Shown here in pieces: positions 4,682 to 24,229 of a stretch of 33,895 bases of DNA. The DNA comes from a virus. The stretch is from IMG/VR virus record IMGVR_UViG_3300000227_000002, positions 49,937 through 83,831 of that record; one strand, written 5' to 3'. Below the pieces are notes generated by a model, which searched no databases, was not told the DNA's origin, and saw only the letters and a program-made list of their open reading frames with translations. The translations under genes were made by a program, and so were the position numbers. Each line of letters begins with the position of its first letter. Position 1 is the first letter of the stretch.

Positions 4682-4856
4682 TTTATGATTAAATAAAAAT
4701 AATTTTAAATAAGAAAATTACTTGACATACTAGTTGTTTTAGTTTGTGGCATCTTATTATGGAATGATGCTAAACTATTGTTTTATGTCGGGTAATTACA
4801 ACATATATTCATTTATATAAAAAAACCCGACAACTAATAATGACGTCGGGTTTTTT
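4682..4856 (+). ncRNA. Structured leader RNA with alternative terminator/antiterminator
   Basis: The predicted transcript from the promoter at 4644-4674 is about 175 bases and has no credible gene. It contains a long hairpin, AGTTTGTGGCATC (4741-4753) against GATGCTAAACT (4766-4776), then GTCGGGT (4787-4793), ACCCGAC (4825-4831) and a second GTCGGGT (4845-4851) followed by T. The central segment can pair with either copy, and the pairing with the second is the terminator. This is the architecture of an attenuator or riboswitch; no known riboswitch class is recognised. tRNA-Asp lies 25 bases beyond the terminator, so readthrough would yield it. Confidence 0.5.
4825..4856 (+). terminator. Terminator in the leader before tRNA-Asp
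   Basis: ACCCGAC and GTCGGGT form a perfect 7-bp stem with a 13-base loop, followed by a T6 run; a run of A precedes it, so it could work in both directions. Confidence 0.75.
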
Positions 4857-4880
4857 GTTCTTTGATATAATTTTATATTT

Positions 4881-5120: not shown

Positions 5121-5486
5121 ATGAATAACTATATTATTTATGGTACTGAAACCACACCAGAAATAAAATTTGATTATAATAATAAAATTATTATATTTGA
5201 AGGAGTTTCGCTACCCGAATATGGTAATGATTTTTATGACGATGTTGAAAAAAAAATTGTTGAATTTGTTAATTCCAATTCAAACAATATAACAATTATT
5301 TTTAATTTAGTTTTTATTAATACATCATCAAATAATAGAATTTATAATATATTAAAATTTTGTATTGATAATGTTAAAAATTTTCGTGTTATTTGGAAAT
5401 ATGAAAAAAATAATGATGTTATTTTAGAACATGGTGAAATATATGAAAAAGCATTAAATTTTAAATTTAAATTTATAGAATATTAA
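5121..5486 (+). CDS. SiaC-family (DUF1987-like) regulatory protein, copy 1
   Basis: 121 residues. The N-terminus YGTETTPEIKFDYNN, the element FEGVSLPEYGNDFYDDVEK, then IIFNLVFINTSSNNRI and FRVIWKYE follow the order of the SiaC/DUF1987 family (TPxIxFD, GxSxPEN...FY, FNTSSxK, VxWyY). In Pseudomonas, SiaC is a small phosphoprotein that binds a diguanylate cyclase under control of a kinase/phosphatase pair; related proteins are common in Bacteroidetes. The gene stops three bases before a second copy starts (TAATT ATG), so the two form a tandem pair between tRNA genes. What a phage would do with it is unknown; interference with host signalling is speculation. Confidence 0.65.
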   Translation: MNNYIIYGTETTPEIKFDYNNKIIIFEGVSLPEYGNDFYDDVEKKIVEFVNSNSNNITIIFNLVFINTSSNNRIYNILKFCIDNVKNFRVIWKYEKNNDVILEHGEIYEKALNFKFKFIEY

Positions 5487-5488
5487 TT

Positions 5489-5851
5489 ATGGCAGAAATT
5501 TTAGGCACAAATAATACCCCAAAAATAGTTTATGATGACATCAATAATGAATTATGTTTTAGGGGAAATTTATATCCCGAAAACACTAATGAAATATTTC
5601 AATCATATTATGATTTTATTGATAAATATGTTGGTGATAATATTTCAATATGTTTTGATATTGATTATATAAATTCAACATCAAGTAAAGAACTACTTAT
5701 TTTATTTAAATATTTAATATCAAAAAAGAAAATATAAACTTTTAATTGGATGATTTATTATTATGATGACGATATGTTAATGTTATATGATGATTTTAAA
5801 AATATATTACAAATCCCAATAAATATTATATATAAAAATATTAATAAATAA
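5489..5851 (+). CDS. SiaC-family (DUF1987-like) protein, copy 2, interrupted by TAA
   Basis: The first 82 codons give MAEILGTNNTPKIVYDD, FRGNLYPENTNEIFQSYYDF and FDIDYINSTSSKELL, a good match to the first half of the SiaC-like fold. TAA at 5735-5737 then stops the frame, but the same frame continues as TFNWMIYYYDDDMLMLY and DFKNILQIPINIIY up to TAA 5849-5851, which is the missing second half (V-x-W-Y-Y-D-x-D-D-D-M pattern). So there is one in-frame stop and no frameshift. It ends one base before tRNA-Val. Either a recent nonsense mutation, a base error, or readthrough. Confidence 0.6.
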
Positions 5852-6151: not shown

Positions 6152-6175
6152 CAATAAATATTTGTTATTATCATT

Positions 6176-6249
6176 GGGGACATAGTGATAAATGGATAAC
6201 ATGATAGTTTTACATTCTATAAATTTGGATTCGAATTCCAATATCTTTA
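6176..6249 (+). tRNA. tRNA-like, apparent anticodon UAC (Val)
   Basis: The T arm TTGGA/TCCAA with TTCGAAT and the D arm AGTGATAAATGGATAACA are clear. Loop TTTACAT on ATAGT/TCTAT gives TAC if the arm starts where it does in the tRNA-Gln of this window. The acceptor GGGGACA/TATCTTT holds three G-T pairs and one mismatch. Possibly a weakened second tRNA-Val. Confidence 0.5.
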
Positions 6250-6285
6250 CTAAAAATATTAGTATTTATATAAAAATAAAATACT

Positions 6286-6783
6286 ATGAAACATTTAATA
6301 TTTTCATATTTGATGATGTTATTGGTATTCTTATCGTATGTTGTATCAATAGCAATTATTTATGGAATACAGCGAAGTATTTCAAATAGTTATTATAAAT
6401 TACCATCAAAATACAATTTTTTATTTGTTTTATTTTGTTGGGGATTTTCATTTCCAGCAATAATTATTGGTGTCGAATTAACTAATAATTTTTTAATGTT
6501 TTTAGCGGGTGCAGGTATTGGTTTTGTTGGTGCTGCTGCTGCGTTTAAAGAAAAAATGACAAATAGTGTTCATATGACAGGAGCATATTCTGCTGTTGCA
6601 TTAAGTCAATTATCAATATTTTATGATTTTCATTTATATTATATTAATGTAATATTTATAGTTGGTGCATTATTAATGGAAATACTATCATATTACAATA
6701 AATTAAAAAATAAAATTTGGTGGCAAGAAATACTAGCATTTATTTCAATAATTATAACATATACGATTAAACTATTTTTTTAA
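6286..6783 (+). CDS. Multi-pass membrane protein of unknown function
   Basis: 165 residues. Hydrophobic segments at about 4-27 (LIFSYLMMLLVFLSYVVSI), 43-60 (FLFVLFCWGFSFPAII), 65-83 (a glycine-rich helix, FLAGAGIGFVGAAAAF), 96-111, 116-132 and 145-163 suggest five or six transmembrane helices with short loops. The glycine-rich third helix followed by Phe-Lys-Glu-Lys suggests close helix packing. It stands between tRNA genes. A similar layout is seen in unannotated Bacteroidetes membrane proteins, but I cannot name a family. Possible roles are superinfection exclusion or lysis control; neither is shown by the sequence. Confidence 0.7.
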   Translation: MKHLIFSYLMMLLVFLSYVVSIAIIYGIQRSISNSYYKLPSKYNFLFVLFCWGFSFPAIIIGVELTNNFLMFLAGAGIGFVGAAAAFKEKMTNSVHMTGAYSAVALSQLSIFYDFHLYYINVIFIVGALLMEILSYYNKLKNKIWWQEILAFISIIITYTIKLFF

Positions 6784-6874: not shown

Positions 6875-7045
6875 CATTAATTTATAATATAAAAAATAAT
6901 TATTTTTATTATATGTTAATATGTTAATACAACTTAAAATTTTATTGAGTGATTCATACGATATTATTAATATATGATAATTGTAACAATTTAATTTTAT
7001 TATTGTATATATAATTAAATATATTATGTTGTTCTTTGATATATT

Positions 7046-7390
7046 GGGGCATTGTGGTTTAGATTAGAATGTGGTGTGATTTGTAAGTAGGTGGTGATAG
7101 AATTATCACCTTAATAAGATTCAAAGAAATAAATGTAGACAAATTAATATTAAATTTCAATTCTAAAATTGAAAAAAGGGTTTTATGTGTTAAAAATGAT
7201 GAATTTGCAATTGTCGTATAGTAAAATGATTATGCTAGTATTCTATTAGGATTTGAGATGCAATTAAGCACTCTAGTTTTTGGGTTAACTATAGAAAGCA
7301 AAATTTTTGTTGATTAGAAAAAAATCAAATAAACCTGTAGAAAACAAATTAAACAGTTGTAAGACTTGGGTTCGAATCCCAAATGCTCCT
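7046..7390 (+). ncRNA. ssrA: Transfer-messenger RNA (tmRNA)
   Basis: GGGGCAT (7046-7052) and ATGCTCC (7383-7389) form a split acceptor stem, 345 bases apart, with the G3-U70 pair that marks alanine. The 3' side has a normal T arm (TTGGG, TTCGAAT, CCCAA). A long helix like P2 is formed by GTGTGATTTGT (7074-7084) and ACAAATTAAAC (7344-7354). Between them a reading frame ends with V-K-N-D-E-F-A-I-V-V-TAG (7189-7221), which parallels the E. coli tag ANDENYALAA, including the N-D-E. A hairpin GGTGAT/ATCACC (7093-7110) lies upstream of the tag. The discriminator is U rather than A, which is odd. The exact resume codon (GTT or AAA) is not certain. It would rescue stalled ribosomes and tag the peptide for proteolysis. 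Confidence 0.78.
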
Positions 7391-7482
7391 CAAAATTTAA
7401 AATATTACTAATTGAATAATTTGTGAATGAGGTGATTAATTTAAGATAATTCAAAGATATAATTAATAGTAGAAATAATTTA

Positions 7483-11656: not shown

Positions 11657-12676
11657 ATGATAAACAATAAAAATAATATTTTTGTAAACAAATCGTATTG
11701 GAAAAACATGTCAGAAGAAGAATTAAATGTATTTGCAAATGAAATATTTGCTTATTATAGAGAACATGGATTTCCATATTATTCTAAAGATAAAAATTTT
11801 AGAGACGTTGAATTCAATAAATTAATGAATTATGATTTTATAAATTTATTTGATGGTTTAACAATAAAACAAACAATGCATGGATTAGCATTAGCATGGT
11901 CGTATTTTCCACATTCATTTAATGTTAAATGTAATAATTTAATGACACCATATGAAGCCTTTATTAATGACGATGTGTTTATTAAAGTAATTCATAAAAG
12001 ATTAAAAATTGGAACATATATGTCAGATTCGGGTATTAGAAAAATGCTTAAAATATATACAGGTGTTCAAGGAGTATCAAATTTTAGACCAACAGCAGCA
12101 GCATGTATTTATAATAGATATGCACCCAATGGTATTGTATGGGATATGTCTGGCGGTTGGGGTGGTAGATTATTGGGTGCAATTGTATCAAAAGTAAACA
12201 CATATATTGCAACAGAACCATCAACAAAAACATATAATGGCTTAATTGAATTATCAAATGATTATGGTAAATCAATAAATTCAAAAATTTATTGTGTTGG
12301 TAGTGAAGATTTTATTCCAGATAAGAATTCTTTGGATTTGTGTTTTACATCACCACCATATTTTGATACTGAAAAATATAGTGATGAAAACACACAGAGT
12401 TATATTAAATATAGTGAATTTAACAATTGGGTTGATGGTTATTTAAGAAAAACAATCATGAATTGTTATCACGGTTTAAAAAATAATAAATATTTGTTAA
12501 TTAACATTGCTGATGATAATAAAAACAGTAGAAATTTAGAAAATACGACAATTGAGATTGCTAAGGATTGTGGTTTTTATTATTGTGGTAATATATCATT
12601 AGCGTTATCAAATATTAATTTGCAAAATAAAATGAATAGTTTTAAATTTGAACCAATATTTATTTTTAAAAAATGA
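11657..12676 (+). CDS. DNA methyltransferase with SPPYF motif, copy 1
   Basis: 339 residues. The N-terminal 110 residues form a helical domain; then FRPTAAACIYNRY, VWDMSGGWGGRLLGA (SAM-binding motif I, around residue 155-170), LDLCFTSPPYFDTEKY (catalytic motif IV, about 230-245), QSYIKYSEFNNWVDGYL and KYLLINIADD. SPPYF places it among amino (N4-cytosine or N6-adenine) methyltransferases; the pattern SPPYFDxEKY...QSYIKY is frequent in phage genomes. It overlaps the RNA ligase start by four bases (ATGA), so the two are translated together. A diverged paralogue sits at 23108. The specific base and target cannot be told. It probably protects phage DNA from restriction or modifies host DNA. Confidence 0.82.
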   Translation: MINNKNNIFVNKSYWKNMSEEELNVFANEIFAYYREHGFPYYSKDKNFRDVEFNKLMNYDFINLFDGLTIKQTMHGLALAWSYFPHSFNVKCNNLMTPYEAFINDDVFIKVIHKRLKIGTYMSDSGIRKMLKIYTGVQGVSNFRPTAAACIYNRYAPNGIVWDMSGGWGGRLLGAIVSKVNTYIATEPSTKTYNGLIELSNDYGKSINSKIYCVGSEDFIPDKNSLDLCFTSPPYFDTEKYSDENTQSYIKYSEFNNWVDGYLRKTIMNCYHGLKNNKYLLINIADDNKNSRNLENTTIEIAKDCGFYYCGNISLALSNINLQNKMNSFKFEPIFIFKK

Positions 12677-15195: not shown

Positions 15196-17766
15196 ATGAG
15201 TGAAAATATTCGTAAAAGTTATTCTAAATCTGAAGTAGAAAAAGCGACATTAGAGTATTTTAATGGAGATGAATTAGCTACTGATGTTTGGATAAGAAAA
15301 TATTGTTTAAAAGATGAAAATAATTATTTTGAATTAACACCAGATGATATGCATTGGCGAATCGCTGGCGAATTATCAAGAATTGAAGCAAAATATCCTA
15401 ATGGCTTATCCAAAGAATTTATTTTTGATACATTAAAAAATTTTAAAAGAATTGTACCACAGGGTTCACCGATGTCAGGAATTGGCAACGATTTACAAGT
15501 GGTATCATTATCAAATTGTTTTGTTGTTGGTAATAAGGGTAATGCTGATTCTTATGGCGGTATTTTAAAAATAGACCAAGAACAAATTCAATTAATGAAA
15601 CGTAGAGGAGGTGTTGGTCATGATTTATCTGGTATTAGACCTGCTGGTAGTCCTGTGAAAAACAGTGCAATTACAAGTACTGGTATTGTTCCTTTTATGG
15701 AAAGATATTCAAATAGCACAAAGGAAGTTGCACAAGATGGTAGAAGAGGCGCATTAATGCTTAGTGTTTCAATCAAGCACCCTGATGCTGAAGATTTTAT
15801 TGATGCTAAATTAGCACAGGGTAAAGTTACCAATGCTAATATTTCGGTAAAAATTACCGACGAGTTTATGTTTGCTGCTCTTAATAATAACAAATTTATT
15901 CAACATTATCCAATTGATTCTAAAATTGAAGATGCTAAATTAGTTAAAGAAATTGATGCTAATAAATTATGGAATAAAATTGTATATAATGCATGGAAAT
16001 CAGCAGAACCGGGAATATTATTTTGGGATAAAATAATAAGTGAAAGTGTTCCAGATTGTTATGCACATGAAGGTTTTGAAACTGTTAGTACCAATCCATG
16101 TGGTGAAATACCTTTATGTCCATATGATAGTTGTAGATTATTAGCATTAAATCTTTTTGGATATGTTATTAATCCATTTACGCCAAAAGCATATTTTGAT
16201 TGGGATTTGTTTAAATCAGATGTCCAAACAGCAATGAGATATATGGATGACATTGTTGATTTGGAAATTGAAAAAATTGATAAAATATTAGAAAAAATTA
16301 AATCTGACCCCGAAGATGATTTTATAAAAATATATGAAATTAATTTGTGGGAAAAAATTAAAGAAATGACAATAAAGGGTAGAAGAACTGGATTGGGTGT
16401 TACTGGTGAAGGTGATATGTTAGCAGCGTTAAATTTAATATATGGAACTAATGATGCTAATGATTTTTCTGAAGAATTGCATAAAACATTAAAATTACAA
16501 GCATATCGTTCATCCGTTATTTTAGCAAAAGAACGTGGTGCATTTCCAGTTTGGAATTATAATTATGAACAAAACAATCCTTTTCTTCTTAGAATAAAAG
16601 AAGAAGACCCATCATTGTATGATGATATGATTAAATACGGTCGTAGAAATATTGCGCTATTAACTATAGCACCAACTGGAAGTGTTTCAATATTAACACA
16701 AACTACTTCTGGTATTGAACCAGTATTTTTACCCGTATATAAAAGACGTAGAAAAATAAACAATTTGGAAAAAGATATTGTTTCTGATTATGTTGATAGT
16801 GAAGGTGTTGCATGGAAAGAATATATAATATTCCATCATCATTTTGAGTCTTGGTTAAAAAATAATAACTATAATGTTGATGTTGTTAAATCAATGAATA
16901 TTGAGCAAATTAATGAAATTATAAAAAAATCACCATTTTATAAAGCAACATCTAATGATGTTAATTGGATTAAAAAGGTTGAAATGCAAGGAAGAATACA
17001 AAAACACGTTGACCATAGTATCTCTGTTACTGTTAATTTACCAAATGATATTGATATCGATACTGTTGCTAAAGTATATGAAACAGCATGGCGTAGTGGA
17101 TGTAAAGGAATTACAGTATATAGAGATGGTAGTCGTGATGGTGTTCTTATTACCAATAATTCAAATAATGAAATTTTTGGCGACCACAATGCACCTAAAA
17201 GACCAAAAAGACTCAAAGGCGAAATACATAGATTTCAAAATAATTTAGAAAAATGGATTGCTGTTGTTGGTCTTAAAGACAATAGACCATATGAGATTTT
17301 TACAGGTAAACTTGAAAATGGTTTAAGTAATTTACCGCCTAATGTTAAGGAATGTGAAGTTGTGAAAAAAATTATTGATGTTGTAAATTATGATGAAAAT
17401 GGTAATTTAATTACTAAAAAAATTAAGAGATATGATATTGAATATGTTGATTCTAATGGTGAAAAACATATTCACACAGGATTAAATCATGCATTTAATC
17501 CAGAATATTGGAATTATGCAAAATTTATATCCGCCGTATTAAGGCATGGTATGCCAATTGCTTCTGCTTATGAATTAATATATTCTATGAATTTTAAAGA
17601 AGACCACATTAATACATGGAAAAATGGTGTTGTTAGAACAATAAAAAAATATATCAAAGATGGCGTAAAAGGAAAGGGCGTTTGTTTGGTATGTGGTAGT
17701 GAAAATTTAGTATACCAAGAAGGATGTTTGATTTGTAAAAGTTGTGGTAGTTCTAAATGTGAATAA
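15196..17766 (+). CDS. nrdJ: Class II (B12-dependent) ribonucleoside-diphosphate reductase
   Basis: 856 residues, intact. Motifs in order: QGSPMSGIGNDLQ, VVSLSNCFVV (first redox cysteine), RRGGVGHDLSGIRPAGSPV, VSTNPCGEIPLCPYDSCRLL (active-site Asn, thiyl Cys and Glu), GRRTGLGVTGEGDML, LTIAPTGSVSILTQTTSGIEP with PVFLPVYKRR, and CKGITVYRDGSR. The end, CLVCGSENLVYQEGCLICKS and a last Cys-Gly pair, is the cysteine-rich tail typical of adenosylcobalamin-dependent NrdJ. It makes dNDPs from NDPs using coenzyme B12 without oxygen or a second subunit, suited to an anaerobic or variable-oxygen host. Own promoter at 15121, terminator at 17791. Completely free of stops, unlike many neighbours. Confidence 0.95.
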   Translation: MSENIRKSYSKSEVEKATLEYFNGDELATDVWIRKYCLKDENNYFELTPDDMHWRIAGELSRIEAKYPNGLSKEFIFDTLKNFKRIVPQGSPMSGIGNDLQVVSLSNCFVVGNKGNADSYGGILKIDQEQIQLMKRRGGVGHDLSGIRPAGSPVKNSAITSTGIVPFMERYSNSTKEVAQDGRRGALMLSVSIKHPDAEDFIDAKLAQGKVTNANISVKITDEFMFAALNNNKFIQHYPIDSKIEDAKLVKEIDANKLWNKIVYNAWKSAEPGILFWDKIISESVPDCYAHEGFETVSTNPCGEIPLCPYDSCRLLALNLFGYVINPFTPKAYFDWDLFKSDVQTAMRYMDDIVDLEIEKIDKILEKIKSDPEDDFIKIYEINLWEKIKEMTIKGRRTGLGVTGEGDMLAALNLIYGTNDANDFSEELHKTLKLQAYRSSVILAKERGAFPVWNYNYEQNNPFLLRIKEEDPSLYDDMIKYGRRNIALLTIAPTGSVSILTQTTSGIEPVFLPVYKRRRKINNLEKDIVSDYVDSEGVAWKEYIIFHHHFESWLKNNNYNVDVVKSMNIEQINEIIKKSPFYKATSNDVNWIKKVEMQGRIQKHVDHSISVTVNLPNDIDIDTVAKVYETAWRSGCKGITVYRDGSRDGVLITNNSNNEIFGDHNAPKRPKRLKGEIHRFQNNLEKWIAVVGLKDNRPYEIFTGKLENGLSNLPPNVKECEVVKKIIDVVNYDENGNLITKKIKRYDIEYVDSNGEKHIHTGLNHAFNPEYWNYAKFISAVLRHGMPIASAYELIYSMNFKEDHINTWKNGVVRTIKKYIKDGVKGKGVCLVCGSENLVYQEGCLICKSCGSSKCE

Positions 17767-18437: not shown

Positions 18438-18560
18438 TATGTTCTTTTATATTTTGCCGAGATAATTAAATGAAATATTATTTGTTCATTAGATAGAAAA
18501 TATGAGTTTTATTATAATTCTTGGATTAATTTTTATGTTCATTGACATGCTGAAATGAAG

Positions 18561-22736: not shown

Positions 22737-23111
22737 ATGGATAATAACATAGAAAACATTGATTTAAATAATACTTATTGGGATAGAGTTAAAGGATTTG
22801 TATCTGAATTAAAAATTGATGCTCGTTGGTTATTAAGAAATAAAGATGATGATAAATCAATTGGGTCTCTTAGAATTGTATCACATCCTGATTTACCCCC
22901 GGGGTATTTACGTGCATTTTTTACGTATGTAACATCGATTAGGAAAAAAAATAAAACTGAAAAAATGAAAACTGTTGAAAATTATATGATCGATATTAAC
23001 GAATTAGAAGTATATTCCATAGCAGATGATATAAAAACAGAAACTGTAAAATATGAAGCACCATTTAAAAAACTAGAAAATATGTTTGGTGTTAAAATTT
23101 TTGAAAAATGA
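22737..23111 (+). CDS. Hypothetical protein upstream of methyltransferase copy 2
   Basis: 124 residues, ATG start, ending in the ATGA that opens the methyltransferase, so the two are translationally coupled. Features: WDRVKGFVSELKIDARWLLR, an SLRIVSHPDLPPGYLRAFF segment with a Pro-rich turn, ENYMIDINELEVYSIAD and a C-terminal FKKLENMFGVKIF. The composition suggests a compact alpha/beta protein. The coupling suggests a role with DNA modification, but no family is recognised. Confidence 0.65.
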   Translation: MDNNIENIDLNNTYWDRVKGFVSELKIDARWLLRNKDDDKSIGSLRIVSHPDLPPGYLRAFFTYVTSIRKKNKTEKMKTVENYMIDINELEVYSIADDIKTETVKYEAPFKKLENMFGVKIFEK

Positions 23112-24229
23112 ATAGTAATATTTTTTTTAAATTTATAAAAAATGGTGAAATTTATGTTGATGAAATAAATTGGTGTGAAATAAAGAATAGTTATACACAA
23201 AATTTTATTATTAAACAAATATCTGATGCAATTCGTGACTATAACATTGAATTACCATATCGTAAAATCAGTAAAGAAAACGTATATGATGATTATTTTC
23301 AATTAGTTAATTTACAAAAAAATTTAATATGTGATGGAAAATGGGTTAATAAATTTCAATATAAATATCCATTTATTGATAAATATATTGATATATCAAA
23401 AGTGGGTAATTTAGCCAGTGATTATTTTCATCAAAAAGAAAGATGGAAATGTGATGTTACTGGATATCTATCACCGCAAAAAACTTGGAATGTTGAAAAA
23501 TTCAGATTATCCTTGTTTAAAGCACTATTTTCTCTTAATGTTAAAGAAATAAATCCTACTATTTTAAGAAATATAATTTCGCTAAGAAAATATATTGCTG
23601 CACAGTTTAGGCCAAGTGTAGCAAAAGCAATTTATGATATGTTTCAAGCAGGAACGGTATTGGATTTTAGTATGGGATGGGGTGATAGAATATTAGGTGC
23701 GCATACTAGTAAATATGTAAAAAAATACGTAGGATTTGACCCAAATATTAATTTATTTGATGGTTATAATAATCAAATTAACTATTATAATAAAATTAAT
23801 ACACTTAAAATATATATAATAAAACCCAATTGTGCCGAAGATGATACTATTACATTAAATGATAAGTTTGATTTGGTTTTTACATCACCACCATATTTTG
23901 ATAAAGAAAAATACAACTAAAGTGAATTACAATCATATATAAAATATAAAGATTTTAATATGTGGATTAATAAATTTTTATGTAAATTTATTGAATTGAG
24001 AACCGAAAATTTAAAATTTGGTGGTTATCTTGTTATAAATATTAGTGATATTTACTCAAGAAAAAAATTATATAATATTTGTGATATTATGAATGATTTT
24101 ATATTATCAACTGGTAATTTTAAATATATTGGTGCAATTGGATTGAGAATGCCTAAAAGACCACAAAGTATTTCATTTAATACTAATGGCATATTTGCTG
24201 AACCAATTTGGATTTTGGAAAAAAAATAA
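23108..24229 (+). CDS. DNA methyltransferase with SPPYF motif, copy 2, interrupted by TAA
   Basis: The frame runs from ATG 23108 to TAA 24227 with one internal stop, TAA at 23918-23920, and no frameshift. Before it: LRKYIAAQFRPSVAKAIYDM, VLDFSMGWGDRILGA (SAM motif I), LVFTSPPYFDKEKYN (motif IV). After it: SELQSYIKYKDFNMWINKFL, GGYLVINISDIYS and FAEPIWILEKK. Copy 1 at 11657 reads FDTEKYSDENTQSYIKY here, so the stop falls in place of one residue. The N-terminal 120 residues differ from copy 1. Translation without readthrough would remove the QSYIKY part and the last strands. Neighbour of dNMP kinase. Confidence 0.75.

Follow-up and report, generated by a model that had tools for sequence, protein, structure and literature searches.

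A divergent phage-encoded tmRNA with a long, unusual tag in an uncultured virus genome

Does an AT-rich segment close to tRNA genes of an uncultured phage encode a tmRNA, and what could be the role of a tag that ends in VV? The segment lies at positions 7046-7390 of the window, by which we mean the whole 33,895-nt stretch analysed here (positions 49,937 to 83,831 of the 88-kb IMG/VR record IMGVR_UViG_3300000227_000002). An initial annotation, made from the letters of the window, had described it as a phage-encoded tmRNA with an unusual tag. Virus-encoded tmRNAs are known from mycobacteriophages, Bacillus phage G (PMC4131195) and the marine phage Melnitz (PMC9004378). The accompanying remark that phage tmRNAs are rare can be set beside a 2021 survey, which found one in 402 of 18,146 phage genomes (PMC9004378), and beside the huge phages, in which tmRNA together with SmpB has been published (Al-Shayeb et al. 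2020, PMC7162821).

Alignment with the Rfam tmRNA model RF00023 covered the segment over its full length (7046-7393, model positions 1-374), with a score of 32.4 bits and an E-value of 2.8e-11 in a 701-bp stretch, and the same match was recovered with an E-value of 8.3e-13 in a scan of the whole 88-kb record. The score falls under the RF00023 gathering score of 47 bits; the tmRNA is absent from an Rfam scan at the gathering threshold and surfaces only with an E-value threshold, and ARAGORN made no tmRNA call at 7046-7390. The ARAGORN and Rfam cut-offs are thus shown to miss divergent phage tmRNAs. A clade HMM gave 202.6 bits, the window sequence itself being part of its training set, and folding of the single sequence gave a modest gain over shuffles (z = -2.15). 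It is the comparative evidence, not the single-sequence fold, that decides whether this tmRNA is real.

Relatives were collected through the ribonucleotide reductase (RNR) encoded at 15196-17766 of the window, which is 54-61% identical to those of LR745206.1 (635 kb), LR756500.1 (462 kb) and a faecal phage contig. As a single query this RNR found no match in viral contigs; an alignment query was needed, which retrieved 80 IMG/VR loci, with the nearest reaching about 70-75%. The RNR genes of four of these relatives (L082, L085, L086 and L087) are about 1.1 kb longer, with an apparent insertion (intron or intein). When 50 of the RNR-bearing IMG/VR records were searched with RF00023, ten matches were obtained, at 68-112 bits; the conserved 3' motif TAAACYTGTAGAAA, used as a query blind to the tag, brought in further tmRNAs. 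RF00023 detected no tmRNA in the related records G003, G004 and G020, all of them fragments, and DNA similarity to the window tmRNA in the phage collection was confined to short matches of tRNA type or to the leader. In several relatives the tmRNA lies between tRNA-Trp and tRNA-Leu(taa), the same slot as in the window, and it stands upstream of the RNR gene by about 7 kb in G013 (L030) and about 8 kb in the window. Homologous position, synteny and the 3' TAAACYTGTAGAAA motif are shared between the window and the long-tag tmRNAs of huge phages.

Eighteen distinct tmRNAs, the window's and 17 relatives found without reference to the tag, were aligned (alignment A2). Both sides have changed in 36 of 61 pairs while 94.2% of cells are paired, a level reached by none of 500 shuffles; when the partner strand was slid, pairing fell to 40-46%. 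The window was then set against a structure for which only the 17 relatives were used and to which the P3 pseudoknot helix was added. Outside the tag helices, 18 window pairs deviate from the commonest pair, of which 16 still pair and 12 are doubly changed, against an expected pairing of 42% for random bases of the window's composition. Of the 11 changed pairs within the tag-region helices, 9 no longer pair in the window (pairs inside and outside the tag were counted by hand from the pair list). The inner P2 helix shows a compensatory change from A-U to G-C relative to most relatives (CAAGU/ACUUG to UAGGU/ACCUG), and P3, which covaries over the 18 sequences, carries two compensatory double changes in the window (GUAGU/ACUAC to GUGAU/AUCAC). 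Acceptor, T arm, P2 and PK1 are intact in the window, in many cases by way of compensatory changes. A chance likeness of acceptor and T arm, in AT-rich DNA near tRNA genes, has virtually no probability left: T-arm fragments of RF00023 do match ordinary tRNAs of the record too, at 12-16 bits, but the full-length alignment, the synteny and the covariation already refute this explanation. The segment at 7046-7390 is a real tmRNA. With the model match and the acceptor and P2 pairing of relatives both found, the initial identification is borne out.

Table 1 Features of the tmRNA locus, in window coordinates.
Feature	Position	Strand	Remarks
Leader TGTTCTTTGA, boxA-like or promoter-like	7030..7039	+	Directly upstream of the tmRNA; putative role
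5' acceptor strand GGGGCAT	7046..7052	+	7/7 pairs with 7383-7389, including G3-U70
D-loop region TGTGGTTTAGAT	7053..7064	+	GG kept, TTTGAC altered; alignment A2
P2 inner helix, 5' strand TAGGT	7088..7092	+	Partner ACCTG 7333-7337
Pseudoknot PK1	7093..7122	+	P3 7093-7098/7105-7110; P4 7100-7104/7118-7122
Tag frame VDKLILNFNSKIEKRVLCVKNDEFAIVV, 28 codons and TAG	7135..7221	+	TAA follows at 7222-7224; ungapped against the relatives' 28-codon ARAGORN tags
Hairpin TTTCAATT-CTAA-AATTGAAA within the tag frame	7155..7174	+	Sequence and fold; near the relatives' hairpin
3' hairpin TTGATT/AATCAA, conserved late helix	7310..7328	+	Helix 11 of the covariation analysis
P2 3' strand with ACCTGTAGAAAAC motif	7333..7365	+	TAAAC(T/C)TGTAGAAA invariant in A2
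T arm TTGGG-TTCGAAT-CCCAA	7366..7382	+	5/5 pairs
3' acceptor strand ATGCTCC and discriminator U73	7383..7390	+	A73 in relatives with resolved end

The elements named at the outset, a split acceptor with a G-U pair, a T arm, a long P2 helix and a U discriminator, are all present (Table 1). The G3-U70 pair is conserved in every relative with a resolved acceptor. Where the acceptor check resolved the 3' end of a tmRNA, which it did not for L201, U73 is seen in the window only. The discriminator A73 is common, and contributory rather than decisive for alanine identity. The D-loop of the window reads TTTAGAT in place of the usual TTTGAC; a related variant, GATTAG, occurs in L150, and a search for the window's own variant found no match. 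Downstream of the tag, in the region of PK2-PK4, the late helix is conserved and the remainder is too variable to align.

By homology, the tag is read from the resume codon GTA at 7135, preceded by AAATAAAT, a conserved A-rich element, to the stop TAG at 7219. The internal frame ending KNDEFAIVV-TAG is thus confirmed; the view of it as a short tag of NDE type is not, those residues being only the last 9 of 28. A length of 28 residues lies within the range of the long-tag family, about 25-33 aa. None of 3000 dinucleotide shuffles comes as close to the relatives' tags as the C-terminal half does, while likeness in the N-terminal half is at chance level (17% of shuffles), and about 6% of shuffles have the frame open by chance. 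Reassignment of TAG was considered and rejected. Few ORFs stop at TAG (2 of 30), yet translating it as Q makes ORFs hardly any longer; TAG was therefore kept as the tag stop, and TAA follows anyway. Another frame, TGT AGA CAA .. TTC TAA (CRQINIKFQF), would end inside the hairpin loop, like the P5 stop in the RF00023 consensus. We consider this frame very improbable, as both ARAGORN and homology set the relatives' resume codon at the column of GTA 7135, GTA recurs in L030 (tag VEDIMSIQTS...), and the C-terminal E-F/L-A-I is shared by the frame from GTA 7135 only. Searches of IMG/VR with KNDEFAIVV and DEFAIVV revealed no second tag ending in AIVV or IVV. The 28-residue tag was also sought elsewhere in 16 records, as possible mimicry of a phage protein, and only the tmRNA itself was found.

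The tags called by ARAGORN in most relatives are 28 aa long (for example AEDIMSIPTSLTRGNAVFARNAELAIAA). All 17 relatives in A2, collected without a tag reference, carry EDxMS; L130 reads EDLMSIPTF. Across 25 distinct tags there is no change in the E, D, M, S, T or S of EDxMSxxTS, an invariance that is partly built in, as the search pattern itself fixes these residues. Synonymous codon changes occur at E, D, S, P, T and S of the motif, including AGT for TCT in a 735-kb phage, and the E and first S codons covary at their third positions in the manner of paired hairpin bases (GAA/TCT 18 times, GAG/TCC 6 times). Third-base covariation and peptide conservation together indicate that the motif stretch is constrained as both RNA and peptide. 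The module also sits within otherwise different tags, GNTYNPEDIMSIPTSLNTAPVVALEEVELLAA (L196) and GKVYNSEDMMSIPTSITRTAVAEEVECLMAA (L207), and in two read from the printed sequence, GNGYNSEDMMSLPTSLMKSFKTQEAELELA (L202) and GDYKMNAEDMMSIPTSLTGKVATESFVEDLVLA (L208, which is LR756501.1). One long tag, GNKDSSLGSIQDLKYALANNMLAKTQVEELVAA in L165, is without it, and short tags occur in LR756500.1 (GNNAEMRMAA) and L134 (GVNQFALAA, read from the sequence). Within the phage collection, only the two 735-kb records showed the module, with a weak E-value, and the motif pattern gave 15 hits in bacterial genomes, of which the clade model recognised none as tmRNA. A further candidate phage tmRNA, at 2900-3320 of L139, has by eye a tag of about 42 aa from a resume-like GGC, GNVVITNEVGGIADVLAVVKGSSAKVIKLTSAPIAEKLELAA; ARAGORN made no call there.

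Where the relatives have EDxMSxPTS the window reads VDKLILNFNS, and the motif is gone. An RNR tree, roughly rooted at its midpoint, places the window within the group that has motif-bearing tmRNAs, beside L030, whose tag also begins with V. Because the window is nested among such carriers, the motif was probably present in its ancestor and lost in its lineage.

We interpret the locus, with a probability of about 0.78, as a functional one-piece tmRNA that belongs to a huge phage and whose tag has been rewritten in this lineage; the charging of the tmRNA, its part in ribosome rescue and the degron role of the tag are proposed. AlaRS would charge the tmRNA with alanine, the G3-U70 identity pair being present, and SmpB, from the host or from a phage copy outside the 88-kb contig, would deliver it to stalled ribosomes. 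Translation would resume at GTA 7135 and add 28 residues ending in NDEFAIVV, whose hydrophobic end could act as a C-terminal degron recognised by a Clp-type protease, and ribosome cycling would thereby be maintained during infection. In related phages the tag is composite, an EDxMSxPTSL module followed by a putative degron; the window's lineage has kept the frame and the degron-like end and has rewritten the module.

SmpB and ClpP were not found in the window's 88-kb contig, a fragment, so that their absence means little. SmpB is present in LR745206.1, G027 and the 735-kb phage, and ClpP in LR745206.1, LR756500.1 and two IMG/VR relatives. In LR745206.1 (635 kb), SmpB and two ClpP genes (332958-333383, 123568-124089, 75197-75721) are present, and despite these no tmRNA was detected by RF00023.

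As far as sequence can tell, the full-length model match, the fold, the synteny, the compensatory changes, the likeness of the C-terminal half, a TAG directly followed by TAA and the place in the RNR tree speak for a working tmRNA. The sub-threshold score, the missing ARAGORN call, U73, the D-loop change, the lost motif, the chance-level N-terminal half, the roughly 6% chance of an open frame, the failure to find a second genome with this tag and that to find SmpB in the contig speak against it. In a rival reading the gene would be in early decay, no longer needed, its fold still recognisable while tag, discriminator and D-loop drift. Several relatives with similar RNRs do lack a detectable tmRNA (the fragments G003, G004 and G020), and U73, the altered D-loop and the lost tag motif would fit. 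We give decay a small but real chance; two-sided compensatory changes in P2, P3 and the T-stem, and an intact 28-codon frame with a double stop, are unlike neutral decay and favour a functional tmRNA.

The VV end had been thought to redirect stalled products or to let them evade host proteases. Such a tag, hidden from host ClpXP so that products are stabilised or redirected, is an unlikely explanation. VV is unique to the window within the tag set, but the tags of its sisters end in AA, IA, VA and AV, so the proposal found no support; VA and AV ends already occur there. An ssrA variant ending in AAV serves as a ClpXP tag in E. coli, and is degraded, only more slowly (PMC9382460). More unusual than the VV end are the length of the tag, the family's internal motif and the absence of that motif from the window, which a single sequence could not have revealed.

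tmRNA tags are usually thought of as short degrons, and bacterial tags are most often 10 aa long (PMC11915505). In a tag of about 28-33 residues, a first half conserved across very divergent huge phages, one of 735 kb, implies a second function of the tag or a partner. It is conceivable, although we hold it only tentatively, that huge phages run their own trans-translation, in which a phage or host factor would recognise EDxMSxPTSL and the composite tag of module and degron would sort rescued products in a phage-specific way; the window would then have swapped the module and kept the scaffold. The window offers a natural experiment in this respect, with the RNA fold kept and the internal module lost. 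In open-access literature of limited scope, no paper on long conserved tags of huge phages was found, and the long composite tag appears undescribed within that literature. The tag database of PMC11915505 searched RefSeq viruses, and the uncultured huge phages of IMG/VR are probably outside it. In its passages on tmRNA, PMC7162821 reports the huge-phage genes and does not describe the tags.

With the one-piece bacterial tmRNA (RF00023, ssrA) the window shares the tRNA-like domain with G3-U70, P2, PK1, a tag frame with stop and the conserved 3' region. It differs in its 28-aa tag, the IVV end, U73, a very AT-rich sequence and a score below gathering. LR756500.1 and LR756501.1 presumably belong to the study of Al-Shayeb et al. 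2020, from whose main text the accession numbers are absent. LR756500.1, with an RNR similar to that of the window, has a short tag of canonical type, unlike the window. LR756501.1 (735 kb) combines a long tag containing EDMMSIPTSL with SmpB, and a group I intron interrupts its tmRNA, again unlike the window. This intron (RF00028, 96 bits) lies in the T loop of the tmRNA (minus strand, 6160-6640 of the stretch 712000-725000), and joining the exons restores an unbroken T arm and the acceptor GGGCTCG/CGGGTCC, in which G3-U70 is present. The tmRNA of Melnitz is described as two-piece, permuted and under a riboswitch, whereas that of the window is one-piece.

A GTTC(T/A)TT(A/G/T) box stands 14-17 nt upstream in 19 of the 26 tmRNAs of the set. 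The box TGTTCTTTGA might act as a boxA antiterminator or else as part of a promoter. It or a close variant also occurs at 4856-4865 and 18536-18545, upstream of tRNA-Asp and tRNA-Cys. A Lak-phage match to the leader box was discarded, there being no tRNA or tmRNA at that place. Elsewhere in the window, a pair of neighbouring SiaC-family genes (PF09345) lies at 5121-5737, and the second of the pair is truncated. Two related DNA methyltransferase-like genes (phrog_12517) occupy 11657-12676 and 23108-24229, the second of which may be split into ORFs 23108-23920 and 23960-24229.
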